Source of the DNA: Tubulanus polymorphus | Taxonomy: Eukaryota > Nemertea > Palaeonemertea > Tubulaniformes > Tubulanidae | Assembly: GCF_964204645.1 (NCBI RefSeq) | Contig: NC_134025.1 | Coordinates: 9,925,001 to 9,989,000, forward strand | Direction: 5' to 3' | Length of the DNA stretch: 64,000 bases | The notes under the pieces: model-generated | Seen by the model: the letters and a program-made list of their open reading frames with translations, nothing else | Told to the model about the DNA's origin: nothing | Databases searched by the model: none | In this document: piece by piece, positions 15,901 through 62,698 of the stretch | How positions within the stretch are numbered: the stretch's first letter is position 1 | How the letters are laid out: the number at the start of each line of letters is the position of its first letter | Program-made: the position numbers and the translations under genes

Positions 15901-18900
15901 ACGTTGACATATAGGTAAACAGAGGGCTTATTAATCACGACAGCCGCGTGGCAACTGATTTGTATGCCGAGTTAAAACGCCGGCTATCCATCTTACGATT
16001 GTCGACGGCGCACGATGTGTTGCGAGGATTTTGCGGGCTGAAAAGCTAGAAATTGCGTTCTGAAAGGCGTAATTGATGTCAGAAATTTGCTGATGATGTG
16101 GCGACGGCGCAAAGCGTTCGTTCTCGCTTCCCCGATCCGTGTCACTCGTCCATTTGAGATCGGACGCGAACGCTGCGGCCGTCGCTCTGTATTCATACCG
16201 ACGATGCGTTATAGCCGTGAACATTAATCTTGATTATTCGATCTCGAAGGTGTAAATCTGGCCCGTTGGTAATTCAAGTGTAAATGGAATCAGCAATTAC
16301 GAGAATATCATGTTACACATATCCACTTTTACTTAAACACCCGTTCTGTACCACTTATATGCTCATTTCTTCTTCATTACTCGTTAATAATAAGCTATTC
16401 ATGAACTGTTGTTTCTCTTTGGGTTTGAGGAACCTGTTATAAGCCCGGATCAAACGGCAAATTAGAAAAATGCATTTTTATTCAATGTAACAGCAGACAG
16501 GTTTCTATTTGTTGCATTCAGATGACGAGTCTTTCTTGTAGTTCTTTTAGCCTCATAACGAAGCTCATAGGAATGACAACGAACGACCTAATATCAATCC
16601 CCGTCATTAGCGAAACCCCACGATATATATCTAAAACAACCGCTATTGCTTTTTCGGGTGGAATACTTCCACCCATCTTCAGAATTTATTATTATTGTTT
16701 CATTCCTTACGTTTTTGGTGGATATTTCCACCCTTCTTCAGAGTTTTTATTTGATGCGTTTTTATTCAAGACTGGACATAGTCCCAACTATTCAATCCCT
16801 GTGTTTGCGTGGGTGAAAAAAAAATTAATTGTTACGAACACAGAATATCTCGGCATTCTTTCATGAAACCTGCTGAGTCCAATCGTCTATTTGAAAAATG
16901 CGACACAAAGCTGAGACTCGTGCGCGACTGTCTTTTGGAATAATCGAGGAAACCATATGGCTATGGCGTGATGTCGAAGGCGTCCGAGGCATTACCGTTT
17001 AAAGACGCGCTCGTGTGCTTCCAAACGTAATAGAAATCAGGACCAATCTGACATTTGTCATTTATTTCGAATAAGAAAAACGACTACACGTCGTTCCATC
17101 TGCTGGCCTTCCTAAATTAAAAAGTTTTCAGTTTGATTACTAACACGGAAAATATCCGTATGGCTGCGGCGTTCGTGAACATTATCCTTACAATCGAATA
17201 CACGGAATGGAACGACTTTCCCTTAGTAGAAAACACTGTAGTGTGTACGCCATCCTCGAGCGAGGCCCATCGGATCACCGGGGCATAGCTTTTCATTCAT
17301 TTTTTGGAAAACCGGTTTCTAATACGGCCGATAAATATAGCGCCATACAACCATCACACACCGCATCAATCTTACAACGTGGTAATTATGCCACCAACGC
17401 GAAGGAATGAATTTGATATTAAAAAGCGTATTATCTTTAAGTTCTTACATTCTGTATCGTTTGGTCACCAACGTGTACACAGTATGCCCGCATCGCCAGA
17501 AGCCACCGTATTGTCAAGCAACGCAATAAAGTAATTAGCAAACCTACTTTGAGTCAGCCGGGCGAGAAATGCTCCCTATCATTGTACAATAATAAATCGT
17601 TCTCGACGTTTGTTTTAGTGACAGCGACATCCCATAAAACGATCCCTCAGTCGATCGTTACCGGATTTATTACCGAATTAGAAGCCTCTTCTTTGACCCG
17701 CTACGATCCGCGATCAGTTACAAAAACCGGCCGTCAAGGATAATCATTCATTGTTTTTTTACCGAATTGATAAAAAATATTTCCGATAAGAATGATCTTC
17801 ATGAATACATAACTACCCTAATGACAACAAGGTTCATTATCATAACAAGGACAATCCGATGCACAATTGAATTATATACAATACCAATCCCTTTTTATCA
17901 AAGGTCAAGGGCGCGCAATGTCTCTCTCTCTCTCTTTCTATTTATCTCCAATTCGATTTTTTGCGTTGATTAAATCTAAATGCATGCAGTCTCAATTCTT
18001 ATAAATCGAAACGTATTAGATTACCCTCAAACATGAATCCTTTGTATGCTTCTATATGGAGTTTCTTTAGTTCATTAGTAATCGATATCGTATCTATATT
18101 CAAACAAGAATCAGCCATGTGATACGTTTCCTCGCTACTAGATGTCACTAAGTGGCGAAGAAGCAACAAGCGCTAATTTCTTTTCTAATTCGAAAATGTT
18201 CATATTCATGATGTCGCGAACAAAATGCTTATAATGTGGTCCCGTATCGACGACGATCATAAAAGTAGTGCCATCCCCGTATCTTTTGGTTTCCGCTTAA
18301 TTTCTACTCGAAAACCGTATCAAATTCCACTTCGAAAGCTATCCTACATAAAATGCTTATCTGACGTACTTAACCGTTAGATAAAATAACATATTTTTCC
18401 AGTAGTTTTGTTTTATTTCGTTCGGATAACATGCGTTTAACGTGTTTATTGCGTGGCGGATGAATATGCGTTTGACAATTTAAGGGCGTTGGTTGTTAGC
18501 GGCTGGTTTTCAATCATATATAAAACGTTTCTGGTGACAAATTTCGATGCTAAGGTTACAAATATGTCTTCTCAACGAAAACACTTCCAAGATGAAGTAG
18601 AAAACGTTAAGAAATGATCATTGATGCCATCGTTTTCGTTGGGTTTAGTAGAAATCGGATGCCGAGTCATTGACTTAAAAAGTAAAATATACGTGACAGC
18701 ATGTACGGAATCGACGACGAAATAAGCACGATTTGCCATGAAATTCTGATCAAAATGCTCAGTATCGGTTAGACTGAACGCTCTATTGGTGACATACTGC
18801 AAAAACATCATCAACCTTGACCTACATAACAAGATTTCGTCGCAGAAAGCAAAAAATGTCGTTCATCAGATTGTCTGATTTTATAACGAAACTTCGTATG

Positions 18901-23166: not shown

Positions 23167-23239
23167 AGGTTTCGGCGGGGCTCGAACCCGCGACCTTCTG
23201 CGTGTGAAGCAGACGTGATAACCACTACACTACGAAACC
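23167..23239 (-). tRNA. tRNA-Val, anticodon CAC
   Basis: On the - strand the sequence folds as a full cloverleaf. The acceptor is GGTTTCG/CGAAACC (7 bp). The A-box is TAGTGTAGTGGTTATCAC. The anticodon stem TCTGC/GCAGA encloses loop TTCACAC, giving anticodon CAC. The B-box arm is GCGGG-TTCGAGC-CCCGC. The D arm is identical to that of other animal tRNA-Val(CAC) genes. The discriminator base would be T, part of a TTTT run that can act as the Pol III terminator. There is no intron. Confidence 0.93.
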
Positions 23240-31265: not shown

Positions 31266-33071
31266 TGATACTGGTCATCTTGAAATACCGAATGTCGTTC
31301 TTTTTGATGAAACATTACATTTTCTCAATTCGATATCTGGTCAACTCGGTAAAAAATGCAGATTATCGAGCATTCAGGCAGATCCACTGTATATGTACCA
31401 ATTATCCATCGTTTGACTTTGAATCATATCGTTAATTCAAAAAAGGCGGTCCGGTACAAATATTCAAGAAGTTGTTAAGCCTTTCCGACAATTAAGCAGA
31501 TTACATATCAGGAAGCTGATTTTTAGGGCGTAATGTTCTTGGAAATGTTTTCATTAATCCCCGGGGATGCGCTAATTCGTTTATTACTTGAAATATTCCA
31601 TCCGTTTAAGTGCGCAATCCAGGGAAAATAAACCCGCGGCGGCATTCTCGACGGCATTCGTCGAAACTAAAACTTTGATTATTTGAAATACTGCGGAAAA
31701 AATGGAATATATAATCTATTTTTCCAGACTTCAATTCGTCAATCCACTATGTGTTAATGATCTTGATATGTTTATAGGGCACAATGTGTGTCGAGCTCAA
31801 TTGACAGGCAGTTGAAATCTTTGTTCTTTCTCTACTCGGTATCTCTTTGATGCTAATTCCTTGAAGATCGAGGTGTTCAGATTTGCCATATGGGCCCTAC
31901 ATTGAATTTTTGAAGTATCAAGGATCTCGCTGGCTATCGATTCTGTTGTGATACCCGTATAGATCTTGGTTATTCATGATTGGTAGAGCCCCCTACCAGA
32001 ATTGGTACAGAGTGAGTGCTTTCCTCCTGCACGGCAAGGGGGCTGATGGATTTTGGAGACTAAGTGGCACCGATGTGCAATTTTCAGTCGCACGGTCGTG
32101 GAAGCCCCATCAACCCTCGATTTAAAAGAGACATTTTGATATGTTGCATCGACTCCTGACGCCATATCCAGGCACCGACTGCAATGCGGTTCCAAGAAAG
32201 CTGCCATTCCTTATGACAAACGAACCTTAAATATGTCGTTCAGGACTGTACTCGACGCCCTTCCATCGTTCTATTTTCTCATTAACAACAATTTTGGTAT
32301 TAACATCTCAAATGTACCCTCCTATTGCCTGTAAATCATGTTTTATATGCTTAGATAGATCTGAGATCATGTACCTTCGACGAATACACTCTCTCGCAGT
32401 ACACAATATGCATTCGCACTGATGGCAGCATGCAAACAACGGATAGTTTAGGGCTATACTCCAACTGCGCAAAATAGCGAGGAATTGTGTAACAATATTG
32501 TGCAATACTTCTGTCATGGCATCGTCCACTAAAGAAAAACTTGTTCCGCGTATTCTTGAACATTTTAGAAATTTCGTAAATCATGGCTTGATTAGCCTTT
32601 GATAAAAATCTCAATTAGGTTTGAGGAAAATCACATGTGTTATTTGGAAAACTGCTGTATGTGCGCAGAGCGCTTATCACCGGAGGAATATCTACCTCAA
32701 GGTTAGTGGCAAGATCTATTCGAAACTTCTTTTGATTTTTTTTCACATCCGGTACGGGTTTACGTTTTATTTTCAATGTCTGATTTTGTATGTCGATATC
32801 TTTGAAAAATCAATGATTGTGTAGCCTATTACCAATTCAAACTTAAGGTTTTAAGTAGTAAGTGTTAAGTGTATCAATAACGTTGTAGTGATACACAGTA
32901 GTGAAATAGAAGTCGTGGAGATGGCCAGTCACTTCCGCCACCGGGAAGTTTTTAGATAGAACTTTCGTGTATAATTCAACAGGACCTATGTATGTGGCAT
33001 TGTATTTGTCATTGAGAATTGACAGTAATTGTATATTCTATTTGAATACGTGTGGACCTACATTTTCCATC

Positions 33072-39100: not shown

Positions 39101-42061
39101 AGCGATTGCGTCATTTGGCTGACTTCCACGCCACCTATTGTTGATCTCAATTTAAACAATCTAAAGTTTATATGGAAACTATGACAATGTAGGTTATCTA
39201 ATTTAAAGAAAAAAGAGGAATACCTTCTGATATCATCAACTTCATCCTGCGTTATTTCTTCATCATACTGGCTTAGATACTCGGTCAAAACGCGTTTGGC
39301 AAATAATCTGGATCCAATCGCCACAAACACGTCTTAACGGGTGAGAGTTAATAACCGGTTTTTCGGTTTTTTCAGTCGAATTGATTTCAAATATATGGAT
39401 AAATTCGAAATATCTTAGCGTAAATGGCATGTAAACGATAGCAAAATTGGAAGTATGTTTTGACCAAATTTTCCGAGCCAAGTACTCCCGTGGGCCTAAA
39501 TCTTTTGAGCTTTTGAGATCATTATTTCATCAACGCGTACTTCACACTGAGCTCGTATCGATGTCGTATGTGTGTAGTGTGAAATTTGAGAAATTCTGTT
39601 GAATGATGGCTCCAGTTTCGCGTTGTGTAAACTCGGTATTAATTGAGTTGATACGAGGCTTCAGATACTCAAAATCGGGGTCAATTGTAACGATTATTGG
39701 CTTTTTCATACATCGGTGAATGTGATCGTGTGTTTTGCGTCCTTTTTCAAGTGTTTCACTGGATCTTTTTGCACCGAGTTTTTTGTATCAATACTTAACC
39801 TTGTTTCCCTATAACAACCATCCAACTGACGATGCTTTGATTAATGGGATCGTGTTTTGATCATTTTCCTGCATCGTCGGATGGCCACACACACAAAATT
39901 CATATCATCAACGGAGTCTAAGGGAAAAGGGGGGTTAGACATCCTAAGCTACTCACCCATACAATTCAGCAAGTATCCGAACTATCATTTTCTTATCCAT
40001 AAAAAAACTCGAAAATCTTTACAAATGTAAAAACTCCTTGCCGCAATCTGGATTCAGTTCCACAGGTGTGAGTTCAAATGAACTTATCATGTCTGTGGGC
40101 TTAGGTCTATTGAACGGGGCCCTTGAAGATAATCTTTCGTATTCTTTTATCGACATCTGATATATTCGTAAACAATGAACTAGTAACATCATTTTTCTGT
40201 CTTCGATCGCTGTGTGTAACTTGTGCCTTTTCTTGGTCTAGTTTTCATCTATTTTTGGTTTTATTTGAACAGTGCAGTCAAAATTCAAACAATGTATTCG
40301 TTTATTTCAAAAAATGGAGATACATGTAAACAGTAAAAACACGATTTGCTATTGCCATAGATTTCATTAAGTAAAAATAATTTCATAGGGTAAATCAATA
40401 TCAGCGGAGTTGTCCACTGTAGCGTTAAATTCGGCATAATATTCGCATGGTCGAAATGTGCAGTGATAAGTGATCGGAGTGTCTTTTTCTCGAAAAACCT
40501 CATAAGATTCGATCCTCGTCGTGATATATTGCGTCTTTTGTGATCGAAAAATGCGCGTGGGTATAGGAATTTATCACATCGACAGCCGACCTATGCAATA
40601 TGTTGCAAATTCGCCGAGCATTAAGAAACCCTATACAAAACGTCTAGCTACCGTTTGGGTGACAATGCACCAGCAGCGGGTATAATGGCGATGATGCATG
40701 CACGCATCCCCGTCTCCAGCGCTATTATGCAATATTACGTAATCAATGGATATGTCGCAATATCACTACGCGACTAGACAAAATTGTCAGATTCCAGCCG
40801 AAATAGTTCGTTCCAGACAGTGCATGTAACTTGTTCGATCAAGTTTTCTTTAATGCATTTAGGTTTTGCGAGAGCTATCATTTACAATGCAAACATTACT
40901 TTTTGACTCCTATATCGTAACGGATCACCGGCGATAATAATATGGAAACTAATGTTGGGTACATGTAATTATGAAAAGCACAGGCGTGGTTTTCGTTATA
41001 TCCCGCCCAGTTATAGATGGGTATCGGGGGAAGAAGTTGACATTACCTGTCTAGGGTAGGGTTGTGGTATGCTTGTATGGAAGAAATTAGACCCCCCGAT
41101 AAACTAGTAAACTCGATAGCCGTATGGGCGACGTTTAAAAACTTGGCTGTCGTCGTTTCGACGTTCAGTCATCGCAATCTTCTTAGTCTTTCCTTCTTCT
41201 CGTGGTACCGGCTTCAATTCGGAATAGCTAGGATTTTACCGATTTATCCTCGGTGTGCGAGGCGAACAGATTTGGATTTATTTCATTATTTTCAGATGCG
41301 GACCCGATAGTTCCAAATTGGCACATCTGTTCGCCGGTCAGACGTTCTCCGATTCATGTTTGCATTTTCCATTCGTATAATTGATAGAAACTTTCATTCA
41401 GCTCGAAAAAAAACGCGACGGCTCTGCGGTTTTTCTATGCGTCATTCTTGACAACGGAGAAAAGACCGGTACAATGGTAACCATTGTTGACCGCTGGTCA
41501 GTCATTATGGTCAAAGAAAACAGGTTTAGAATCTAACACCACTCGAGAGCGTTTCATCAAAAACTTAAATTTCTATGATTTTTTCGTCATGATTCTTTTA
41601 ATGCAGCGAAATGCACCACGTGATTGATGCCGAGTGTATAGTTATCAGCGGAATGAGCACTAACTTGTCATCTGAGGTATTGCTAGTAGGCATTCATTTC
41701 AATGGAAGTGGACATTTGACCACTGGCTGACCATTGGCTTTTTTCAATGGTGATATGGCCGGATTTGCTGTTTTGGATACATTGTTACAATCGTCATGAG
41801 AGGTCGCACCTCTAAATAATGAACCTCTTTTTATATTGACGAACAAAAACCTTGAAGTCAGTAGAAAACCAAACGTTCACTCGTTCACATATCGAATACG
41901 GTCGTAACTTTGCGGGTAGAATTCAAATACGAAAATGATGACCAGGTTTACAAGGCTTATCTCGCTGACCTGGAATTGATTGAAAGACTCATCAGTAGAT
42001 ACCTAAAATCATACCGCTGGATATTACATTTCGGCTGTAAAAAGAAATATCAAGGACAAAG
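31266..42061. other. non-coding or decayed sequence upstream of lin-28
   Basis: Holds the CT microsatellite and reverse-strand stretches at about 33700-34600 that read as protein-like fragments broken by stops, which suggests an old degraded element or pseudogene I cannot identify. A + strand frame at 36875-37056 opens in phase 1 after TTTCTTCATTCAG and runs 60 codons to a stop; it could be a terminal exon. A reverse frame at 35464-35868 is the longest here but has no recognisable domain. No gene is called. Confidence 0.4.
33075..33113. repeat. (CT)n microsatellite
   Basis: Uninterrupted CT dinucleotides over 39 bases. Confidence 0.97.
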
Positions 42062-42221
42062 ATGGATTTTGCAATGGCGCTGATCCATCATCGACCGCAA
42101 CATCCAAACATTATGTTTTTCACGGATTTTATGGATGATGTACTTCTGAACGGAACGTTCAACAGTACGAGTACAACGACAGACGTCACCACAAGTCCAG
42201 AAACGTCCATGTCGGAAGAAG
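42062..42221 (+). CDS. lin-28: lin-28 candidate alternative first coding exon 1a
   Basis: Would encode the N-terminus of the longest lin-28 isoform: 53 codons plus one base. The ATG has a good context (A at -3, G at +4). The peptide starts MDFAMALIHHRPQH and ends in a Ser/Thr-rich stretch and MSEEG, with no signal peptide or domain. The exon stops at GAAG followed by the donor GTACGT, in phase 1, which is the phase needed by the cold-shock exon at 54209. Joined to the common exons (160+122+155+220 nt) the frame closes at 218 residues, close to LIN28 in other animals (about 195-230). The intron would be nearly 12 kb. A short upstream frame (41935-41979) precedes it. The phase match alone has a one-in-three chance of being accidental, and the N-terminus is not conserved enough to recognise, so this rests on start context, donor and phase. 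Confidence 0.5.
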
Positions 42222-43716
42222 GTACGTTGCTTGGTAAATGTTAGTAATATTCATGTCTTGAACGGTTACGTTTTGCAACTCTGAGACGTTTCACATGAGA
42301 AGATGACTGTAGTTCGATTATAGCTTGAACACTGGAAATATGTGTTTATATGGTTTTGTAAATCGTGTTTAGTTTCCTTTTCTCGGTGCGCGAGTTACGA
42401 TATTTCAAGTGATATGCAATAGATGGCGACACGCGAATCGTCGTCTGGGCGCCAACCTTGATACTGAAGTTCTTGGCGGATGTTGTTTATACCTTTGCTG
42501 ATTCTTTGTTTCATGTAAACAGGAAAAAGAAGCAGATTCACTGAAAATATGAACATGCCACGGGCTGTTTTCTATTGTTTCTAGTTCTCTTCCACGTTCA
42601 GTTATATGTCAGCTTTTATCTTATATATACTTCATACTGAAATTTAATTTTCATAAGATTTCCCGTATATTTGATCATACGCACTTTTGTAGACCTTTAT
42701 AACTCAAGGATAACCATGAACAAATCGGTTACGCGCGATAGTGTGTATGTGTGTGAAAATTGTGTGAAAATAGCTTTAGAAACCATAAAATCACTGTTTC
42801 CATTTTTTTCTTCTATTACATGTTCTCTGTAGTTCTCGCTATTTTCCATCTTCACGGATTCCGTGCGAAAAAGAGCAGCATATTAACATTCGTGTTTAAT
42901 TCTATCTGTCAGATATCCAATCACGACATCGGGGAAAAAATCTGATCAGTAATTTGTCAATACGGAATTATGTAACATTCTTCGAGAACCATATGCGAGA
43001 ATAAGTTTATATCTATATATGTATATAATAATAATCTCGGCCCACTCGGGTGTATTTTGTAATACGAAAAGTTGTTAGTAGGGTGTGGTAATTTATCCGC
43101 TGGAAAAAAAACAACTAAAACTGTAATATTCTAACCCTTCTCCCAACTCGGACTGATGTCCATTGTCCGAATATACAGTAAAGGTCCCATATATCGCCCC
43201 GTTGGGACCGATGAAAATACGGCGTTACAACGAATTTGGTGATATAAAGGTCGATTTCGGATTGAACAAATTTGTTCTCTGAAAGAAAAATTTTGGCGTT
43301 AAAGAGAGCAGTGCCATTGAAAAGGATTGCATTATTACGAACTTTGGCTGTATATATATACTAGCCAGTAAGGTATCGGTATTTCTTTTCATAATAACCG
43401 TCACCACAGGTGATATCCTCCGCACTGCGGCTCAGCTCAGAACATTCCAAAAACTCGGCCATAACAAGCAATTGCGGCCGCGGTGAGATCGGTGCAATGG
43501 GTACTTTCACGAAAATATGATTGGATTTTCTCGGGCGAGAAATGTACACATAGAAAGCTTCCTCTAAAACTGTTTTTAGCGCGTCAAACGTCAATCAGTT
43601 CCATTGTGTACACGAGCTGAATGATAACCATGAAATTATTTTGCCATAAAAACGAGTGGGTGCCGGGCCCCGCAAAACTGATATATGCGCGTGATAATAA
43701 AGACTTACTTTTGTCA

Positions 43717-43735
43717 GTGTGTGTGTGTGTGTGTG
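43717..43735. repeat. (GT)n microsatellite
   Basis: Uninterrupted GT run of 19 bases in the putative first lin-28 intron. Confidence 0.95.
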
Positions 43736-46700
43736 CTTGTGATGGTGTGAAGGAGAAAGCGTTGTTTTTTGTGTACGCGATATAAAAGAATGACTGAGGT
43801 CACACGGGATCACTGGTTCAGATATTGGTGAATGAATGACACCGTGGACACGACGTATATTCTTTCATTGTAAAAAAGGAAATAGCAGGTGAAAGTTATG
43901 CACCGAATATTTAAAGAATTCATTTAGTTTTGCGCGGATTCATCATAACGGACTTTTCAAAACCGGATATTGTTCGTTGAACGAATGCCGATAAGGTTAG
44001 TTTTCTTTCAAAATATCAGTTTTAGGTCACCGGTCGATGGTCATCGTGTGCGTAGGCTACTCGATCTTGCACCGTACAAGCCCAACCAAATGATCCAACA
44101 GCGCGCGTGTAAATCTTAAATATTTTCGGGAGCTCACCGTTAGCCATTGATCTCGAATTTCGACTTAACTAATTTTGCGCTGTACGAAAGTAGTTATATT
44201 CTATTTCGAATTAAACTATATAAATCGTGCTCAGAAATTATCATTATCTTTCGCGGCCGCCATGTTGTATTGTCGGTTGAGACAAGACAATTTTCGTACA
44301 CGCACAGCTCTGAGAAATCTTGTCTGTAACTCTACAGATATTTCGCTAGCATATCTGATTTTGTAGTTTGTTTTCGTCGCACGCAACTTAGGCATTATAT
44401 ATGTTTATAGTTTTTGGAAGTATTTCCATATCGACTTCGACAGTGCAGACCATAGGTCACGTGAACAGTAGGAAGCGTTTCAAATTCGCGAGTTGAAAAT
44501 CAATTCAAAATCGCGCCAACATGATCGTTAAACATTGCATATAACGTATTTGTTAATTTGGAAATGAATGCACTAACACCTTGGTGTTTTTACCGGGTGC
44601 GTCATGCAGAAGAGGTCATTTGAAAAGAGTGACAGTGATAGGTGGCTTCCGATTGGCGGAAACCCCCAGAATAGCAGACGGACCTGCATTTGTAATTAGC
44701 ACAAAGCTGCATGTAACTGAAGGTCACATGGAAGGGAAGACATCTACTCCCAAAGATGGAAATATGAACTAGGTTTGTCAACGTTTACTCTGGATAGAGT
44801 GTTGTCTGGATCTTTTTTCGCTGCCGAAGCTGTCAAACTCAAGCAGCAAGGTGGAGAGGGTGACTAGATGTGTTCATAATGACCTCAGGTGCAGTTCAAA
44901 ACTAGATTTCTACTAAAATGTCACAGCGATAGAAAATAATTTCGTATATAATCTCTTTTTTAGTTTTTTATTCTTTATTTTCATGTTTTCAACGTCTGTC
45001 AATACGGGTAAACGTTGTATTTAATTATTATCTGTTTATGCGTTGCGTTTAGAAGGAAATATATCCAACATGGCCGAATGTATACGTAGTACGGAACGCA
45101 GAATCGAAAACGAAAGATATTTTGGGAATTTATCGTAAACGAAAATAAAGTTCATCGACGCGGCGGTTTTCCGAAAACGTTCACAGGAGAGATGACGCAG
45201 TAGTGATCGGTGAATGACCTTGAATGCTTTCCTAAGCGCAGGTCTCAACTTGTGTTGTTTATTCGAGCACCGGAAGATTATGAAATTACGTTTTCGGGAT
45301 GATTTTTCCTCTCCAATAACGGCGAATTCGACAAAATGAAACGGTGGTGTTTTTGATGGAATGTTTAATGCGTGCATATCTAATGTGTGTATGTATGTGT
45401 GTATGTATACGCATTCGTGAAAAACTCCCCGTATAGATTTCAGGTTTTAATTGGATTGCAGTATCAAAATAGGCTAATTGCTGCCTGCACATTAGTGATA
45501 CTAAATCTAAAATAGTTGACTCCCGGATCGGTAGAATCTCAACACGTTACGTTGGGCTACTGCTCTCCGTAAACGACTGAATGCATTATTTACTACGCAA
45601 TTGCGCAATGTGACCTCGATATAGTGGAACTCGGAGCTCGGAAAAACACCCTACACATGCCGGTGACGATTTCACGACTCCAGACGCTTAAACATTACGA
45701 ATATTAACTTACCTGCAGAAGAAAACCATACGAACAATTGGATCTATATCCAAACGTATAAACGATCCGTGAATGAAAAAGAGCGCGATTGAATGAATGA
45801 GTCGATGGACAATCCCTAAGACGTTAGTACTGCGCAAACCAAAATGGTGGCGCACTTTGCTTCGCTCTCTCGAGCTCGCTGCTACGACGTATGATGACAC
45901 TCCGATCAGCCGTGTTACAATCGTCTTTATCGTTACAGCAAAAGGCAGCTACGTCGTTGAAACGGGTTCCGTTCGGGCCCCCGTTCGTTTTTGGACTGTT
46001 CACAGCACGTAGTTGTTTATACAGCCTACCTCGATAGTGAGAAAATAGGTTCATCCACCAGTGCAATATCGGAAAATGGCGCATTACCAAGAAGCCTTTT
46101 ATGTTGCGCTTCCAGTAGGCTAATAAAGCAATTGTACGTCCATAATTTAGCCGCCCTCGAGGCCATTAAGTCTTTAAATCTCTTCTATCTTGATCGTTGC
46201 GTGTCCCGAGTAAGGCTCACTGCGAAATCCGTGTTGGCGTTCGGGTGGGGTAGTGACATATTTTCATCCGATTTATTGCCGATTAAACGAAAATGACAAT
46301 TGGTCTTTATCTTTGCGCCAACTGACCATCAAAAGGACAACCGAGACACATCAAATGTCTTACTATTGTTTTATCTGTGAATAAGAATAATTTAGTGCTT
46401 GATTCGAAGTCCATCATCGGGTAATAGGCCGGCATGATTCCCTTTTATGTTGATCGCCACGATTCCGACAATGTTAGTCCTTGAGCCCGTTTCCGTAGTG
46501 CGTTCGGAGACCTGGATTTAGTATACATTTAAACTCGCGCCTGTAATTCGGACTGCTAGAATATTTCGACTCGTTCCTTTTTCGTGACGTAAAAAAACCG
46601 TATCTCAAATCGTCATAATCGATGCTCCGATTGCTCCCCTGCCGGTCGGTATTGCCAGCCGTCGACGAGGGCGCGCACTAAAATCTTGTTGCCAATGTTG

Positions 46701-48426
46701 TTTGCAGGAATCGCCGAATGCCCTATCATGTACGCCACCGAGGGCTTAACTGGTCCAGTATTCTATTGATGGGGCGGTGACAATAAATCTATGGCTACGT
46801 CGATGGGTATGTACTAAAAATTTCGTTTAGTGCATGTGAAAGTTATTTTTGTACCGTCAATTTTTAAATTTGATCGCGCACAATGCATTTTACACGAGTC
46901 GCGTGTCGAATTGAACACTTACCTGTCATCGTAAAGAGGGTCTATAACTATGCCTCTTGAAAAGGTGTTTTCATTAGTATTCTATATCAAAATGGGTGAA
47001 TACAATGTACCGAAGACTTTATTGCATCATCTTGACATTTGCGCATTGAATGTTTAGTTCACTTCTTATTGCATTGTGAAAAGAACACGGGCATAAAAGG
47101 AAAAACCAGGAATTTTTTCGAGGCTCAACGTCGAAATGAACTAAAACCGTATTTACAAGTTTGCACCGTATAATAGTTTTTTTTCGAAAATTCTAAATAT
47201 GATTTATTCATATGGCTTTGTGGTTCCACTCTTTCTTCGAATTGGCTTTTTCACTTTTTAGGCAATTTTAAAATGCCTTCATTCAGAAAGAACCGTGTAG
47301 CTTTTCGGCAGCTTGTGGTTCGAATTCAACAACGGATAGAAATACTAAAACTGTCTGACATTTTCTAATTCGCATGAGATCTATTTTGATGCCTCTATTT
47401 TTATGGGCGAACTTTCGGTGGTTCGTTTACACCACGTTCCGTGCTTGAATATGAATGAAAAAATATGCGAAGCCCTTCAGATTTTGGCAAACTTATGTTG
47501 TGTGTCCAGCTGCAGTTGTGCAGTTTCTCGATAAGTCTGAATGTCATTCGCCGTTATTTTTCACGATATGCGAAATTTGTTTCGGAAAGATTGAATTGGC
47601 GAAATATTATATATGCCCGTAAAATATTCCTCCAGTGCACGCACAGACAACGTATTCGGAGTTTCGGTTTTGATAAATAAATGGTGAATGATTTCATAAG
47701 TGAAATAGGGTATTTCGCGACGGTTTAATTTCTATGGTCATCTTTCTCTGGGCTGTTTTATTTTCGGAGATTTCCAATTCTTCGATTCTATGGAGAATTG
47801 TGTCGTATTTCGAAAACGTATGTCAGCTATTTCAAATTTGGTAAAATGGCGCTCAGTCGTGGCGCGTCTGCTGTTTAGGTTAATAACCAGATCTCGTGCT
47901 AACCTGGGCTTTTTTAATCTCCCGTGGCTTCTTCTTGAGCCCTATGATTTGCCCTATGTTCTCCGTGTCATCGTGTCATCATGTCCTCTTCGGACGATTA
48001 GTATTCAATCAGGTACATCCGACTGCGTCAGCAGTCGCTTCCTAATGAGGTTTTAATTTGCGTATTGGTCAGTTTTATCGATCCCGGTTTTGTCCGGTAA
48101 AGAAAGGAGTGACCAAGCAGTTGTTCCGGCGCATGAATATACAATTGTTCCGTGTCGACTTCACATTTTCATCTCATCTGTTTCATACTTATATGCATTA
48201 TGAATGATTCCTTATTTGCCTTGGTATTTTAGTGCTCCGAGCACTGCGATGGTTGGTGCGAACGGCTCGCCAGCCGAGGCTTCGCAATAGCATATATTAT
48301 GCGTAGTATCGGATACATCGCTTATAATATCATTAGTGATTCTGCCGGGAAGCGTCAGCGCTTGGTATACATACGTACATACCAAGACTCGTAGGCTACT
48401 TAGTCGAAAACTATCTTAGTTACCTA

Positions 48427-48456
48427 TTTTCTATCCATTTATAAATGGATAGAAAA
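48427..48456. repeat. perfect 30-bp palindrome
   Basis: TTTTCTATCCATTTA is followed immediately by its exact complement TAAATGGATAGAAAA, with no loop. A second hairpin with arms CTTGGTAT/ATACCAAG is 40 bases upstream (48361-48386). Confidence 0.9.
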
Positions 48457-48719
48457 AATTTCGGTAACAAAATATATACTTATCATTTTAAGAATTGCAC
48501 CGACATACCAATGGTACATTCGGTTGGCAAATTCTACATTTCAATTGATTAATTCAGAATAAATATAATTTTTTGATGATTAGTTTATGACGAAATATTG
48601 GATAATGTCAGTGGGCAAACCAGTGTTATATTGAATTTTACTCAATCTAACGATAATCATAAAAAAAGGTATCAAATCATTTACTTAACGTAATTACACA
48701 TTACTTAATGACTGTTATT

Positions 48720-48872
48720 GTTACTATTTTTTTATTACTGATTGGATTTCCTATACAACAATTCCCCTTTATTGTACTTAATTGTGATTTAAGTAATTTT
48801 TGTGCCCTGTGCAATGTTACTTGTGGAGTAATAAACTGAACCGAAGAAATATTATTATTATAAAAAAATTGC
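48720..48872 (+). mobile_element. possible LINE-type 3' tail
   Basis: Ends GTAATAAACTGAACCGAAG then ATTATTATTATAAAAAAA, like 3' ends of CR1/L2-type LINEs. No coding sequence attached. Weak call. Confidence 0.3.
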
Positions 48873-50399
48873 TATGTATTCATATAGAGGAGCATTGCCG
48901 AAGGCAATCCTGACTGCAATTTTTGATTTTGTATTACATTTAATACTCTGATGCCCTTGAGGAAAATAGAAACCCGCGGCTTCAATGGCGAAAATGAATT
49001 GGAATAAAACGAACGTGTCCCCAATTCAAGTTGTAACTTATCTTTTGCAAGTTTATATTAGGGTCCATCCATAATTTCCGCTAGGCTACTTGAAGGTATG
49101 CGGATTATTTATTTCGTCGGCAGCTATGTGAACTTATTGAATTTCAAGTTGGAAATACGTAAGCAGTTATGCTCTTCAAGATATAACCCCCCCCCCCCTC
49201 TCAATCTCTAAATGTATACTGGGCATACTTGTAACGTGGTCCATCGCTGTCTACGCGATGACTGGTCGATCACCGATCAAGTGAACAACTCTTTTCACGC
49301 GAATGATATCCACATCTGTTCACCTTACATTAAACATGTAAATATGAAGCGGAAGAACGATGAGCGATGATATGTATCAAATAAAACTAGGGATATTTGA
49401 TAATTATTCATAGTGGGCACATCAGGGAGCGGCAGGCGCTATTGTCAAGACTGAACATGAAACCTGTTTTGTTTTCTTCGCCATACGATACACAGGAATA
49501 CGAGATAATATATATCGAAAATACTTTTGTGTGAAATCGTCAAATTGGTGAAACGTTAGCGCGCGATGCTGCACGGTCGGGTCAATCAGAAGACACCTGA
49601 GAAACTCTGAGGACGAAAACGACGTTCTCTGCGCCGTCTCGAAGAAAAACTGGAAGCCGTCGAACAAGATATTGTATCTTGCAGCAGGTTAAAAGTTCAG
49701 TGACTAAACTTGTCAGGGAATGGCGCGCAATATTTCCATCGGAGAGCGATGATATTCATCTTTCATAGATCAGCACCGTGCATCGTTTTCATCAGATCGT
49801 ATAATGTTATCAGGATCGGCTTATAACCAATTGTCTCACCGGGGTCCCACTTACGAGTACTAACACACACCTCGCGTCGATGTGACGTTTCGATTCGGAC
49901 TGACAAACCGGAACACGCGCTGTTTATAGTGCGTCATTGTATAGGGCTCGTATTTGAAGTTTGGGGGTAAATAGTAGCTTAGATCATCCAGTAGCCCAGA
50001 TACTTTCTTTTTAAATATAAAGTACATGTGACACTGGGTGATCTAAGCTACAGTATTCACCCCTCCAAGAGCCCCTGTGCATTTAAATAAAATGTTTATC
50101 TTACGCATTGATTGGAAATGGCTTAGAATTAGACGCGCGCGTGGGCCGCATACTGCCACTTTGAAACTTTTCTATATAAAAGCGCATGTCGTTACGTCGT
50201 CTCAAGGCGAATAAGAACAAATAATCCGAGTCTCGGTACAATGATTCAGAGATGATGAAGAGGTGAAACTCAGGTGAAAACACACCCCAGTAGCGGTAGC
50301 TAGTTATCAGCGATACCAAATCAATTCCCCGTATAACACATGTCTGAAGCAAATTGAACGGATAGCAATCTTAAAAGTACCTTTCATAGGTTTCACCGT

Positions 50400-50832
50400 G
50401 AAAATTCATTGTTGACGCCGTAAAAACCGTAACAGTAATGTTTTTCATTACATCGATATTACTATGCGTTATTTTTGGGGTACCGTGTGAGTCGATGTGC
50501 ACTACGTCATCAATATTGGCGTTTCAAAATATCGATAACAATTGTGAATTTTGGCTTTCATTTTGTAATTAAACATATTTCATGACTCTTATTTTCTTTT
50601 TGATATATTTGTAATAACGTATTTTTAATAATGAAGTTTGAATGGATGTGCCATACGCCATCAACATTGGGGAAAGACTGGTTGCCGATCAATTCAATTC
50701 AATATCGATATATTCAAATTCAAAATAACGTTGTTGATCCTTAGTATTATATCATATTATTCGTTCTCGATAATATCAGGAAATATACATGCGTTATGTT
50801 TATTCGGCGTCAATAAACTTTCAAGTTTATTG
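50400..50832. repeat. dispersed repeat, copy 2
   Basis: Second copy of the repeat at 22175-22560, same orientation, 28 kb away. Both end soon after CTTTCAAG. Small frames within it are spurious. Confidence 0.7.
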
Positions 50833-52697
50833 TTTACCTAAGAAGGTCCGCATCATAGACTGGAAGTTTCTAGAATGACTTCTTACATTGATTTTCTAGC
50901 GGGGGTAACATTATATCACATTTGCCACTTTTCATTTGTATTTATGTACTGGCCTTCATGCCATCGATTCTTTCATCCGACCGAAAATATCTGAACGGTC
51001 GAAAAAAACAATCGACTCCTGTGAAGTCGAAGCAATGTCATCGTATCGATGAGAACAATAGCCCACGCAAAATATGCCGTGCGTACTTTATCAAAGACAA
51101 TGGATTGGCGAGTTGTCTTTTGTCGACGACCTCGCGTGGACCGTTGCATTTCGTCATAGCGGTCAATAGTTTGACTTGACCCCCGAGCCAACGCTTCCAT
51201 CGAAATGCGATATATTTCGGTTTTCGTCGCTGTTTATCAAAATGCAGCGGGTTAGTCTAGTGGTTGGTGATAATCCGTCTAGTTTGTTATCAGATTCAAT
51301 TTCATCAATCACAAGCTTCTGACAAACCGCCTGCCCCATTCCTTGCACAAGCCTATCGACTGAACGTGATAATCGAATATGAAATAAGATGACTATTAAT
51401 TTACCAATTTTCTGTGTTATTTAGGCGTTTTACCCAATATACATAATATGATAACGTGCACCTGACACCTCGGCGCGTTTCCCTTCTCGCGCGCACGCGT
51501 CAAACGCATTTTTCGCGTGATTTTCGCATCGATGATCGCGTTAAAAGCGCAATTGAAAACCGGTGTATTCGGTTACTAGAAATTCGTGGACTAATTACAT
51601 AGTATCTGCCTCCCCGGCTCATTTTCAATCGTGTGAATTGAGGGTCCATCCACCGTGAACATTTCAAAATCTGACAAGCTTAAAAAATTGCGAATGTGAT
51701 GACTTCTGGAGGAGATGAAACGAAATATCAGATAGACGGGTCGCCGAACAACAGTGACACTGGAATAAAGGGCCAGTTACTTAATGTGACAGGTTTTAAA
51801 AGTCAATGTTAAAGCATTGAAATGAATATGTCCATAATTATTTTATGGCTCGCCCTAGATGCATGCCTATGCTTTACACTGGACCCCAGATCCGGATTCT
51901 TTTAGACGCCATTCTACACCCAATATCATTTCTAAGAAACGATGCTGCGTCGGTATCCGTATAGTTATACCTTTTGGCGGTTTGTTTCGTGTTTCAATAG
52001 CTAAACACTAGCCACACGATCATCGTTTCGAAAAATTCTTCCGTTCAAAGATGACGTCATCGCATTCGAAGCGTTGTGTGGAGTTAGATTGGAAACGCTG
52101 CTGACATTGTCATCGGTAGTCGAGATGTTTTTGACACGAATATATGCCCATCGCTTCTTTGTCGAATTGTCGTGTTAACGAGGCAGGGGCCAGAATTTGG
52201 AGGCTTTCTCTGTTATTTTTGTCGTATAACGAGACCGCGTTTTTATCGCCATGCGACGTGAAAACAAAGTCGAACCTCTAAGACTTGTGCGTACGCCTTT
52301 GATTCTGTCACGAACGCCCTACGAACCAGAGGTAACTAAAGATAGATATCTGATTTGATTTAAGCGGTGATTATCAAAGTACAGAATATATACATTTATA
52401 ACTGGTTATATATTAAACATGGAAATCATCAGGACCTCGGAAATCATAGTAATGACTGTCAAGCCGGGGCCATAGAAAAGCCAGAAAATTACCGAAACTG
52501 ATAGCCGTTTAGTCCGAGAAATGGGTATTTATCTACAAATTATGGCCTTCTTATTTCGTTAAATCACTATATGCAACGCTTTAAAATGCTAAATGAAAAA
52601 TAGATGGATGCTTTGTTCCCGCTAATACGACTTATACGAATAATTCACTATGCCAGTTCCCAATGTTGCAGAAATTCAATAATGAAACAACGACGAA

Positions 52698-52736
52698 TAT
52701 AAAAGATCGGTGATTATGACGTTTGTTCGTTCAGAA
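52698..52736 (+). promoter_or_regulatory. putative promoter for lin-28 exon 1b (TATA box and initiator-like TCAGA)
   Basis: TATAAAAG at 52698-52705 is followed about 35 bases later by TTCAGA (around 52730-52735), which resembles an initiator. A CpG-rich stretch follows to about 53170 and would be the leader of exon 1b. Spacing is slightly longer than the usual 28-34 bases. Confidence 0.35.
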
Positions 52737-53102
52737 TCGCATTGTTCGATCGTTTTCGACTCCTGTCGAGTACCGGTCCATATATTTCATATTCTCCGGT
52801 GATATATGTCGTAACGGTATAATCGAACTGTCTCAGGCCCCCGCCGAGTGCGCATGCAATCGCAGTAGCGGAGCGGAGCTCGCCGGCATTGTTGCATCAT
52901 TGTTGTTTTCTATAGAATCCGACGCCGACTCGTGCGCCGTTCTGAAAACAATGACGAGCCTCCCATACGTAATACTACTCTCACTGTTGACGCAACGAAC
53001 GTACATACCCGTTTTTCCGAGTCGTTTTAATGTTGCGCGCAACGATGCTGCTGTTGGTATTGCATTCTGCGGCTGCCGGAAGTCGTTAAAGGTGGACAGA
53101 AA

Positions 53103-53136
53103 ATGGCGATTGGACCTGCAATCTATGATTGTCAAG
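53103..53136 (+). CDS. lin-28: lin-28 candidate alternative first coding exon 1b
   Basis: A very short first exon of 11 codons plus one base, MAIGPAIYDCQ, then a donor (CAAG/GTAGGG) in phase 1. It can join the acceptor at 54209 to give a 176-residue Lin-28. The ATG has A at -3 and G at +4 and is the first in-frame Met after a stop near 53030. It lies at the right edge of a CpG-rich stretch (about 52720-53170) that is open on both strands, with a TATAAAAG box at 52698, as expected for a promoter with a 5' UTR. The larger overlapping frame at 52723-53196 is more likely a product of that base composition than a protein. Several short upstream ATGs lie in the putative leader. Support is by pattern only. 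Confidence 0.35.
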
Positions 53137-53362
53137 GTAGGGTTTGCCTTGTGTGAAGGCGTTCGTCGCTTTTCGTCAGCTTCACCGCTTTTTTAATTGG
53201 AAGAGTCGCTTTGCGATTAATTTCCTAGGTTTTAATACATCATTAGCTTACCGAATGACGGACACAGGGTTTCTTCGCTTGGCAAGCTTTGGTTGCCTTT
53301 CGCCACGCCAACGCAGAGTGGTCGGAGCCAAACCCAAGTGCCAAGCGAAGATGGACGATTTG

Positions 53363-53413
53363 ACCATGGAGGTATAATCTAGAGTTTCACACTCTTATAT
53401 ACGTCCAAGACCA
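53363..53413. repeat. palindromic repeat with enlarged loop
   Basis: Left arm GACCATGGAGGTATAATCTAG, then AGAGTTTCACACTCT (itself a small inverted repeat), then ATATACGTCCAAGACC. Same arms as at 28146-28183 with a few changes and about 14 extra central bases. Confidence 0.55.
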
Positions 53414-53737
53414 GACCCATCCATACCGTTCGTTTATGAAGGTTCCATTATTTCTTGCAAATAAATTTCGTGGATGGAAAATATTCTTTTGACAACGAAA
53501 ACAGAATAAAGAAAATAAAGGGGAATAAAAATATCGCACGTTTTAGGCTTAAAAGCAAACTCAATAAAGTTGAATTGTATTCGATTTATACTAAAAACAT
53601 GGGCTTGGTTCACAAAGTAGTTTTAATATTACCTACATTTTTGTCGTAGCATATGTCGTAACATGGACAGTAGATATGATAAACTGTCGAAGCCATGTTG
53701 TTGGCTATTCATAGTTTTCGAAAATTACGTAATTAAT

Positions 53738-53925
53738 GCGCGCGCGCAAGCGCGCGCTATCTGCGGTTTAATTTCAATTACGTCACTATAGACTCGTCGA
53801 ATGGTCAGCTACGAGGGCAATAGGTCAGTGGTCCATTTATCAATACGCTATTGGTGAGCGTTGACCGCACGTGTAGGATCTCATACTATCTCGGATCTAG
53901 TGTTATATATATTATACATGCGATA
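53738..53925 (+). promoter_or_regulatory. putative proximal promoter region of lin-28 exon 1c
   Basis: Within 280 bases upstream of the exon 1c ATG are a GC-alternating palindrome (53738-53757), a CRE-like TTACGTCA (53778-53785), an inverted CCAAT box ATTGG (53850-53854), an E-box CACGTG (53868-53873), and a TATATATA stretch (around 53904-53911). The last would place a start site near 53935, 75-80 bases before the ATG. Each motif alone is weak; their clustering in front of a coding exon is the argument. Confidence 0.35.
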
Positions 53926-53954
53926 GGATACGGATCGCGACATACATCAAATAT

Positions 53955-54020
53955 ATGCGGTTATTACTATGGGAATTATTTGCTATTGAATATCAGAATA
54001 AAACAAAGCAGAATGAGTAA
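53955..54020 (+). promoter_or_regulatory. upstream open reading frame overlapping the exon 1c start
   Basis: ATG at 53955 opens a 21-codon frame that ends at TAA 54018-54020. It overlaps the lin-28 start codon (54013) in another frame; the sequence ATGAGTAA contains both. If transcription starts near 53935 this frame would be in the leader and could limit or regulate translation of isoform 1c. No transcript evidence. Confidence 0.35.
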
Positions 54021-54064
54021 CGCTACTAAATCTGAAGAACCGGTTGTTGATGATCCCGTCGAAG
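54013..54064 (+). CDS. lin-28: lin-28 candidate first coding exon 1c (nearest to the body)
   Basis: Encodes MSNATKSEEPVVDDPVE plus the first base of a Gly codon, then a donor (GAAG/GTACTT). The intron to the next exon is only 144 bp (54065-54208), ending in TTTCTTTGCAG. The join reads ...[22 protein letters not shown]. The short acidic leader before the cold-shock domain is like that of insect and vertebrate LIN28. Total predicted protein is 182 residues. This ATG is the first in-frame Met and has A at -3. It is overlapped by the end of an upstream frame (53955-54020). If only one first exon is real, this one is the most likely because of its proximity, acidic composition and good splice sites. 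Confidence 0.7.
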
Positions 54065-54208
54065 GTACTTCTAAGAAGACTATTATATAGTCTCTTCTTT
54101 TCTTTCTTACATTTGTAGTGTTGACAATGCCGCATTGGTTTTACAGTTTCGGGCCAGTTTTCGAAGCAATTTTAGCTGATTTTAAACGTGTATTTGTTTT
54201 CTTTGCAG

Positions 54209-54330
54209 GGGCACCTGAAGGCCAGGCACCGACAGTACGAAAGAAGGGCAAGTGTAAATGGTTTAACGTCGTGAAAAAGTACGGGTTTATCACCCCTAAC
54301 GACGGGGGCCAGGACGTTTTTGTCCATCAG
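54209..54330 (+). CDS. lin-28: lin-28 exon 2: first half of the cold-shock domain
   Basis: Lin-28 binds the terminal loop and the GGAG motif of let-7 precursor RNAs and blocks their maturation; it also binds mRNAs. This exon carries the N-terminal half of the cold-shock domain: GKCKWFN, the RNP1-type segment KYGFITPN, and RNP2-type DVFVHQ, the strands that stack on RNA bases through Trp, Phe and His. The acceptor is TTTTCTTTGCAG and the donor CAG/GTGCGT. It enters in phase 1 and leaves in phase 0 directly after VHQ. One oddity: the Gly usual before the aromatic residue of RNP1 (MGFGF in vertebrates, KGWGF in fly) is Lys here (KKYGF). Family assignment is secure because the segment reads almost residue for residue like insect Lin-28. 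Confidence 0.96.
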
Positions 54331-58810: not shown

Positions 58811-58965
58811 TCTGTCATCCAAAGGTCGGGATTCCGAAGTTTGGCCGACGAAGAAGAAGTTGAATTCGAATGCCGCTGTTCCGACAAGGGCATCGAGGCG
58901 ACGCTGGTGTGCGGACCGAATGGTTCGGACTGCCGTGGCCGGCCGCCCAGACAAAGGAAGTTCAA
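58811..58965 (+). CDS. lin-28: lin-28 exon 3: second half of the cold-shock domain and linker
   Basis: Begins after TTTTCTGTTTTCAG with SVIQRSGFRSLADEEEVEFE, the Lin-28 signature that completes the cold-shock barrel. It continues with an invertebrate-like GIEATLVCGPNGSDC and ends in a basic linker RGRPPRQRKF that leads to the zinc knuckles. The donor is AA/GTACGTAAAC and leaves two bases, which combine with the first base of the next exon to form Lys. Compared with fly Lin-28 the segment differs by only a few substitutions. The upstream intron is about 4.5 kb, the downstream about 2.6 kb. In the genomic frame the open reading continues on both sides of the exon, which makes a larger false ORF (58601-59098). 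Confidence 0.96.
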
Positions 58966-59880: not shown

Positions 59881-61166
59881 GGCGGCTATTATCGTGCATT
59901 CGTGAAATGTTCCGGATTAGTGAGACGTTTACTGAAAACTCACCGAATATTGCGCACTTTGCCGAATGTTGGCAAATTTCTGTCGTTGTTTGACTTGCTA
60001 GAGTATTCACTATTCGTGTCATTCCATCGTGATCTCTTTCTATGATTATGAAAACGGACTGCCGATATGGCAAACAATTATTTTCTTCATTTTTGCCACT
60101 CCTTTATAGTTCAAATAAAACGCTTTAGTCTGGGATGCGGTTGCGCGTGGGCTTCGTTATGAATTGTAAAAATAACCGTCAGACCAATTTAGCTGTTTTT
60201 AAGAAACCGCAACCTTGCTGTAGGTGACCCCGCAAATTTCTAAATTTCTTTCTGCATGACCTACATATTGGCGTTGTAGATCGTTGGCACATTTCACCAC
60301 ATCCGTTGCGCTTGGTGTCGGTGTACCACTCATACCGCATTCATATTACTCGTTCGTGCACGATTTGTACGAGCATATCATTCGCCACCTAGCGGATCCG
60401 TGAAAATATTTTTCATCGCTAGGTTAACTCCGCAATTTTGATTAATTTGGTGTTCTGTGACCTCGTCGACAGAGCGTAAGGTGCAAGAAATACATTCTTA
60501 GAACTTATTACATGTTCTTGGTATACGATTGACCTCATTTCAAATTTACGATCTGTGAACTCAATTGCCGTTTCGACCAGTGGCGTTTATAACCCCTAAA
60601 CCCCACGTTTCGTTTTCCGATATATATTTCATCTAACCATAATAGGTGAACTTATTAAATACGCGTGTCTATCCGATTGAGGAAGCCATTCTCCAGGGTG
60701 TGATGTTTGACTAAAAGTGGGCATGCGCCGTTTCCAGGAAAAGGCAGTCTGTCTAGGGCATCTTCGTACACAACGCACAGCGCTTCTGCTGCTGCTGCTG
60801 CTCAACGAAATTATGCAATTGATTGAGAATCATTCCGTTGCCATGGTTTCCATGAAGGATTCGATCTCATTATGAATGCATTAGACTCTGTTTCGAATCG
60901 CGTTAGCTCGTTTCGTCTGTTCTTGACATCAGCCGCGACGTCATGAAAAAGTTTTATTTATTAATTAGTCCGATTTGAGGCGAGAACATGGCGTTGAGAT
61001 GATTCGTCGTTTTCTCAATTAGTCAATTCATTCGATGTGACGATCGCGAGAAGATTATTTGAATTTTTGAAAACGCGGCCGTACCCGAGGTCATGCTCCC
61101 CTGCAAAAGCCACTACGTAAATTTTCAAAAAAAAAAGTTTGAACTATGCTTTAATAACGTGAGATA

Positions 61167-61260
61167 ACAGTCCTGCAATCACGAAGCCGAGAAGTTTAAC
61201 AGTCCTACAATCACGAAGCCAAGAAGTTTAACAGTCCTACGATCACGAAGCCAAGAAGTT
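61167..61260 (+). repeat. 32-bp tandem repeat, three units
   Basis: Units start ACAGTCCTG/ACAGTCCTAC at 61167, 61199 and 61231, each containing ATCACGAAGCC and AAGAAGTT. Only a few substitutions separate the units, so expansion is recent. It lies in the last lin-28 intron. Confidence 0.9.
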
Positions 61261-61613: not shown

Positions 61614-61833
61614 ATGCTACAATTGCGGGGAGTACAGCAATCACCTAGCCTTGAAGTGCCCGAAAGGACCGTTGCCGAAAAGCTGTTACGAGTGCCTGTC
61701 TTCTGACCATTTAATCAAAGACTGTCCGAAGAGGGAAGAAAAAACTACGGGTAACGATGGTGACGAGTCTGGAGCCGAATCCAGTCCTCAGCATATCAAA
61801 AACTCAGGGAAAAATGGCGACCAGGCCACGTAG
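61614..61833 (+). CDS. lin-28: lin-28 exon 4: two CCHC zinc knuckles, C-terminal tail and stop
   Basis: Starts after TTTATTTATAG and restores frame as Lys, then gives two retroviral-type zinc knuckles. The first, CYNCGEYSNHLALKC, has spacing C-x2-C-x5-H-x4-C, one residue longer than the vertebrate form but like fly and worm. The second, CYECLSSDHLIKDC, is canonical C-x2-C-x4-H-x4-C. The linker PKGPLPKS matches the family. In the protein these knuckles recognise the GGAG motif of pre-let-7. A hydrophilic tail rich in Glu, Ser, Asn and Lys follows, with the stop TAG at 61831. A perfect 8-mer match to the lin-4/miR-125 seed lies in this tail at 61803-61810. Just upstream, in the intron, is a 32-bp tandem repeat. 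Confidence 0.96.
61803..61810 (+). promoter_or_regulatory. lin-28: lin-4/miR-125 seed match in the last coding exon
   Basis: CTCAGGGA is a perfect 8-mer complement of the lin-4/miR-125 seed. It lies in coding sequence (codons for Asn-Ser-Gly-Lys), about 20 bases before the stop. lin-28 is a classical lin-4/miR-125 target, but through its 3' UTR in worm and mammals. I see no further supplementary pairing upstream, and a single 8-mer can arise by chance. Confidence 0.35.
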
Positions 61834-61977: not shown

Positions 61978-61983
61978 AATAAA
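61978..61983 (+). terminator. lin-28: putative proximal poly(A) signal of lin-28
   Basis: AATAAA, 145 bases after the stop and upstream of the let-7 site. Cleavage here would produce a short 3' UTR without the let-7 element. Only the hexamer supports it. Confidence 0.35.
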
Positions 61984-62684: not shown

Positions 62685-62698
62685 CAACCACTACCTCA
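62685..62698 (+). promoter_or_regulatory. lin-28: let-7 microRNA target site in lin-28 3' UTR
   Basis: CTACCTCA at 62691-62698 is a perfect 8-mer for the let-7 seed, including A opposite position 1. The next base (A, 62690) pairs with position 9. After a one-base bulge in the microRNA, CAACC (62685-62689) pairs with positions 11-15. Let-7 sites in lin-28 3' UTRs are known across animals: Lin-28 blocks let-7 maturation and let-7 represses lin-28. The site is about 860 bases after the stop codon, so it needs a long 3' UTR. Confidence 0.75.

Follow-up and report, generated by a model that had tools for sequence, protein, structure and literature searches.

The coding sequence of lin-28 in the nemertean Tubulanus polymorphus most likely starts in a distal exon (A), with a proximal exon (C) as a plausible second start and a third candidate (B) that is probably not a coding start, a reading to which we assign a probability of roughly 0.65. 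The gene was studied within a 64,000-nucleotide stretch of contig NC_134025.1 (positions 9,925,001 to 9,989,000 of the forward strand), the whole of which is here called the window, with positions counted from its first letter. An initial annotation had proposed three in-phase first exons; taken singly, A is well supported and C possible, whereas B is doubtful. The underlying geometry was described correctly: the three open reading frames begin with ATGs at 42062, 53103 and 54013, run to donors at 42221, 53136 and 54064, and each ends in phase 1 at AAG/GT. Joined to a common acceptor, TTTCTTTGCAG just before 54209, all three rebuild the same glycine, as had been noted (...SEE-G-APEGQ for A, ...YDCQ-G-APEGQ for B and ...DPVE-G-APEGQ for C), preceded on the joined frames by the 53, 11 and 17 residues originally counted, and the full products would be 218, 176 and 182 amino acids long.

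The lin-28 gene and its shared exons

The plus strand between 54 and 62 kb of the window carries an ordinary lin-28 gene, a gene that sets developmental timing. Its three common exons (54209-54330, 58811-58965 and 61614 to a TAG at 61831) join in frame in the assembled open reading frame. The first encodes the first half of the cold-shock domain (PF00313, E 4.3e-11; genome match 7.5e-10) between an acceptor of 7.1 bits and a donor of 6.2 bits. The second encodes the other half, with an acceptor of 5.1 bits and a donor of 2.6 bits; taken alone it falls under the curated cut-off of PF00313 (1.6e-5) and lies above the cut-off in the genome search. The last coding exon (61614-61833; acceptor 4.0 bits) holds two CCHC zinc knuckles (PF00098, 6.7e-5), the C-terminus and the stop codon, and is followed by an AATAAA at 61978.

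Members of the Lin-28 family repress let-7 maturation. The product assembled here has the architecture by which the family is recognised, namely one cold-shock domain, with PF00313 extending over both halves, followed in the same polypeptide by two CCHC knuckles. Its top five PDB matches are all Lin-28 A (8ops being the best, E 1.1e-25) and span the cold-shock domain and both knuckles. The second knuckle matches PF00098 and the phmmer match to Lin-28 A runs unbroken through both; the Lin-28-specific knuckle model PF21890 does not reach its threshold (15.4 of 27 bits, E 0.021). Across the genome (268 Mb in 77 contigs) the cold-shock family matches listed number seven: the two lin-28 exons, three on contig C1 near 23.36 Mb and two on contig C7. 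Judging from these listed matches, lin-28 looks single-copy.

Several smaller features accompany the gene. The first zinc knuckle (61615-61659, CYNCGEYSNHLALKC) has the spacing C-X2-C-X5-H-X4-C, one residue longer than that of human Lin-28 A in the alignment and the same as in Drosophila. The last intron contains three copies of a 32-base unit (61165-61260), and the coding region has a seed match of the lin-4/miR-125 type, CTCAGGG, at its end (61803-61809). At 62691-62698, some 860 nt past the stop codon and downstream of the AATAAA, there is a let-7 seed match, CTACCTCA; it may be due to chance, since the same string is also present at 32692. Elsewhere in the window a tRNA-Val (CAC) gene lies on the minus strand at 23167-23239. 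The observed/expected ratio of CpG is 1.38. Scans with the conserved part of lin-28 gave two pattern matches among viral contigs and 64 among prokaryote genome contigs, and a scan of viral contigs with exon A and the beginning of the common exon gave ten; none of these was confirmed.

Coding content of the probable distal exon

Coding potential was scored with a three-periodic model whose training set came from this genome and held 13,632 codons in 36 loci, comprising all 15 GPCR loci and 30 kinase loci less nine with stops inside the match; for four of these loci (L013, L016, L026 and L028) a shorter open frame than that listed was used. Exon A and the greater part of the lin-28 coding sequence were kept out of the background of the main model, and the ranking was repeated in the further variants against the window as a whole. 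General consensus values, with no training on this genome, served for splice-site weights, start-codon context and core-promoter motifs. The model is a blunt tool, as the lin-28 exons already known receive low scores from it (4.3, 0.1 and 0.9 bits). Real coding pieces of 160 nt have a median score of 7.8 (n=241).

Exon A (42062-42221, plus strand) extends from an ATG in the context ACAAAGATGG to a donor of 5.7 bits at AAG/GTACGT, encoding 53 amino acids plus one base. Its own frame scores 13.4 bits, against -15.2 and -8.3 for the other two forward frames and at best 8.0 on the reverse strand. Among the 146 ATG-open 160-nt frames on both strands of the window, two nested A starts rank first and second (15.3 and 13.4); the next frame reaches 6.8, and the 95th percentile stands at 2.9. 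The 13.4 bits of A were reached by 0.05% of ATG-open null draws at window composition and 0.2% at the composition of A (4000 draws each), and 72% of real 160-nt pieces score at or below it (n=238). When first-exon candidates with donors of at least 1.5 bits were ranked in all phases and on both strands (n=146), A from its nested ATG at 42074 again had the top coding score. In 1-54208, A is the only phase-1 candidate of at least 160 nt with a donor of at least 5 bits, where 40 shuffles gave 0.175. Of all the candidates, only A stands out singly on its coding content.

This ranking largely withstands changes to the model, an A start coming first in four of five further variants and second in the fifth, though with a narrower lead. 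The K=2 variant gives 12.9 and 10.9 for the A starts, with a minus-strand frame at 16224 close behind at 10.8; training on kinases alone lets that frame outscore A (9.0 against 7.9). The frame itself, ATG-open from about 16224 down to 15931, comes next after A in several variants and is possibly part of another gene. Upstream of A there are ATGs at 41819, 41935 and 41938, which would precede its start in transcripts that begin before them.

Where A is spliced can be narrowed by what lies downstream. With acceptor and donor both required to reach 2 bits, none of the internal exons that begin in the interval from A to 54118 has a positive coding score; among the 15 internal-exon candidates on the plus strand from 42230 to 62500 the best is the cold-shock exon 54209-54330, in the right phase for A. 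Exon A moreover has a single match in its own genome, also when 60-80 bases of flanking sequence are included on each side. The join from A to 54209 is thus the simplest reading, and it is on these grounds that we infer it. A GPCR reading of exon A, suggested by its NxS/T motifs, was rejected, as none of the 7tm_1 matches listed (at least 150 in the genome) falls within the window. A text search of the literature with five peptide strings found no papers. Short last exons in the phase of A are possible at 14 places before 54118; two of them have scores barely above zero (0.8 and 0.5 bits, each with 23 codons), and a small separate gene at A is therefore possible.

Proximal candidates and promoter context

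As a set, the three first exons are not clearly above chance expectation. Between 42000 and 54208 there are six phase-1 ATG-to-donor candidates with donors of at least 1.7 bits, against 4.26 +/- 2.02 in 100 dinucleotide shuffles, and the other three, ending at 48012, 50486 and 51250, have coding scores of -33.0, -0.6 and -0.9. Two candidates (A and B) have donors of at least 5 bits, against 0.43 +/- 0.65 in shuffles, and two (B and C) lie in the last 1.2 kb, against a mean of 0.44 in 300 shuffles; both counts are mildly unusual and not decisive. The shared glycine codon is weak evidence, because phase alone picks about one donor in three. Within the last intron, an in-frame ATG at 54127 (coding score -3.8) reads unspliced across the acceptor and on into the cold-shock exon; retention of the intron with this ATG would yield a further N-terminus.

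Exon C (54013-54064, plus strand; 17 amino acids) is compatible with coding sequence. Its score of 2.3 equals the mean of real length-matched pieces, 46% of which score at or below it, and the same value is reached by 9% of null draws at window composition or 16% at the composition of A; estimated from means and spreads, length-matched scores favour coding about two to one. ATGs at 53918, 53955 and 53969 lie upstream and become relevant if transcripts start that far up. The narrower form of our reading, in which A alone is used and both B and C are products of chance, is counted within the probability given above and strikes us as a serious contender at a little under even odds: in its favour, A lies far above its null, and C has a weak donor of 1.8 bits and a score that null draws reach at the rates just given; against it stands the score of C at the mean of real coding pieces of its length.

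The reverse arrangement, in which C alone is the real lin-28 first exon, B belongs to the leader and A is either a short open reading frame without splicing or opens another, unrecognised gene, we consider unlikely. C lies just 144 nt from the acceptor with a coding score that fits, and the overall number of candidates is close to chance expectation. Read past its donor, A ends by eye within a few codons and might encode a short peptide without splicing, and the two short last exons described above could serve a separate gene. Against this, none of the internal-exon candidates starting from A to 54118 scores above zero, A lacks a second genome match, none of the listed 7tm_1 matches (at least 150) lies in the window, and the donor of C is weak at 1.8 bits.

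Exon B (53103-53136, plus strand; 11 amino acids) has a donor of 5.2 bits and a coding score of -3.8, which puts it among the bottom 4% of real coding pieces of its length and is equalled or beaten in 77% or 83% of null draws. Between 52780 and its start lie five ATGs, two of which open reading frames of 19 and 81 codons. On the strength of its low score and these upstream ATGs, B is better read as leader sequence, or as no exon, than as a coding start. The two upstream reading frames, 53030-53089 (MLRATMLLLVLHSAAAGSR*) and 52951-53196 (MTSLPYVILLSLL...), begin with hydrophobic N-termini resembling signal peptides. The stretch just upstream of B has a G+C content at the 99th percentile for the window and may mark a promoter. 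That all three first exons are used, each from its own promoter and with distinct expression, is the least probable arrangement: the frames all fit, two donors of at least 5 bits within 12 kb are more than the 0.43 expected from shuffles and the G+C-rich stretch before B is promoter-like, but B scores as non-coding behind its five upstream ATGs and promoter motifs are at background level.

A TATA-like context had been put forward for two of the first exons; the motif TATAWAWR occurs with up to one mismatch at 7.5 per kb. Paired TATA and Inr matches were counted 44 times on the plus and 45 times on the minus strand of the window, and promoter motifs are at background frequency. The exact TATATATA at 53904, which belongs to exon C, carries little weight, as there are 52 exact matches on the plus strand of the window (overlapping ones counted).

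Alternative starts in lin-28 genes

A transcript from A would lose an intron of 12 kb on joining the cold-shock exon at 54209 and encode the 218-residue protein, in which a 53-residue N-terminal extension, rich in Ser/Thr in its second half, would precede the cold-shock domain. A proximal start in C, removing an intron of 144 nt, would give the 182-residue protein instead. Neither C nor B does well as a cassette in transcripts joining A to 54209, their acceptors in frame reaching only -2.1 and -3.3 bits for C and -3.1 and -5.4 bits for B. Since the acceptors that would join C's donor within an A transcript are this poor, A and C would each need their own transcription start if both are used. 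The choice between them would alter the N-terminus and the 5' leader and leave the RNA-binding domains unchanged.

Genes with alternative first exons are those whose transcripts join two or more first exons to one acceptor, with a separate promoter for each. That this gene produces two or three Lin-28 proteins with distinct N-termini from promoters 12 kb apart is a tentative proposal that we rate as rather unlikely; on that view the distal Ser/Thr-rich N-terminus would tune the stability or partner binding of Lin-28 by stage. It was also claimed that stage- or tissue-specific lin-28 isoforms are known in some animals; alternative N-termini are on record for C. elegans lin-28 and human LIN28B (PMC10363060). 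The C. elegans gene has two isoforms with alternative N-termini, which are stated to be produced, whereas the alternative starts described here are predicted. Human LIN28B has a second, AluJb-derived promoter whose transcript encodes a longer protein with extra N-terminal residues (PMC10363060); that promoter stems from a transposable element, whereas exon A and its flanks have a single genome match.

Drosophila lin-28, as curated in the available parts of two reports, has a single protein isoform and five coding exons (PMC12402932, PMC12174996), in contrast to the four coding exons of each transcript model here, and its first coding exon is described in one of them as poorly conserved between D. 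melanogaster and D. mojavensis (PMC12402932). Synteny with the Drosophila neighbours Separase and Eaf6 is not conserved, the family hits lying on contig C6 and, on contig C1, at a distance of about 15 Mb. A search of the literature found no report of alternative first exons in insect lin-28 in the titles and abstract openings of the matches listed. Long reads from an ant have added alternative first exons to the annotation, including one in Ilp2 that is caste-biased and seemingly affects the 5' UTR alone, and the portion of that study available has no mention of lin-28 (PMC8626913).

For the nemertean gene, the sequence shows the identity as lin-28, the frames, the splice motifs and the coding signal of A; the junctions and transcription starts are predicted, and stage- or tissue-specific isoforms are a hypothesis. 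At present the finding is mostly a refinement of the gene model; a confirmed distal isoform, if true, would offer a testable case of promoter choice in a developmental-timing gene.
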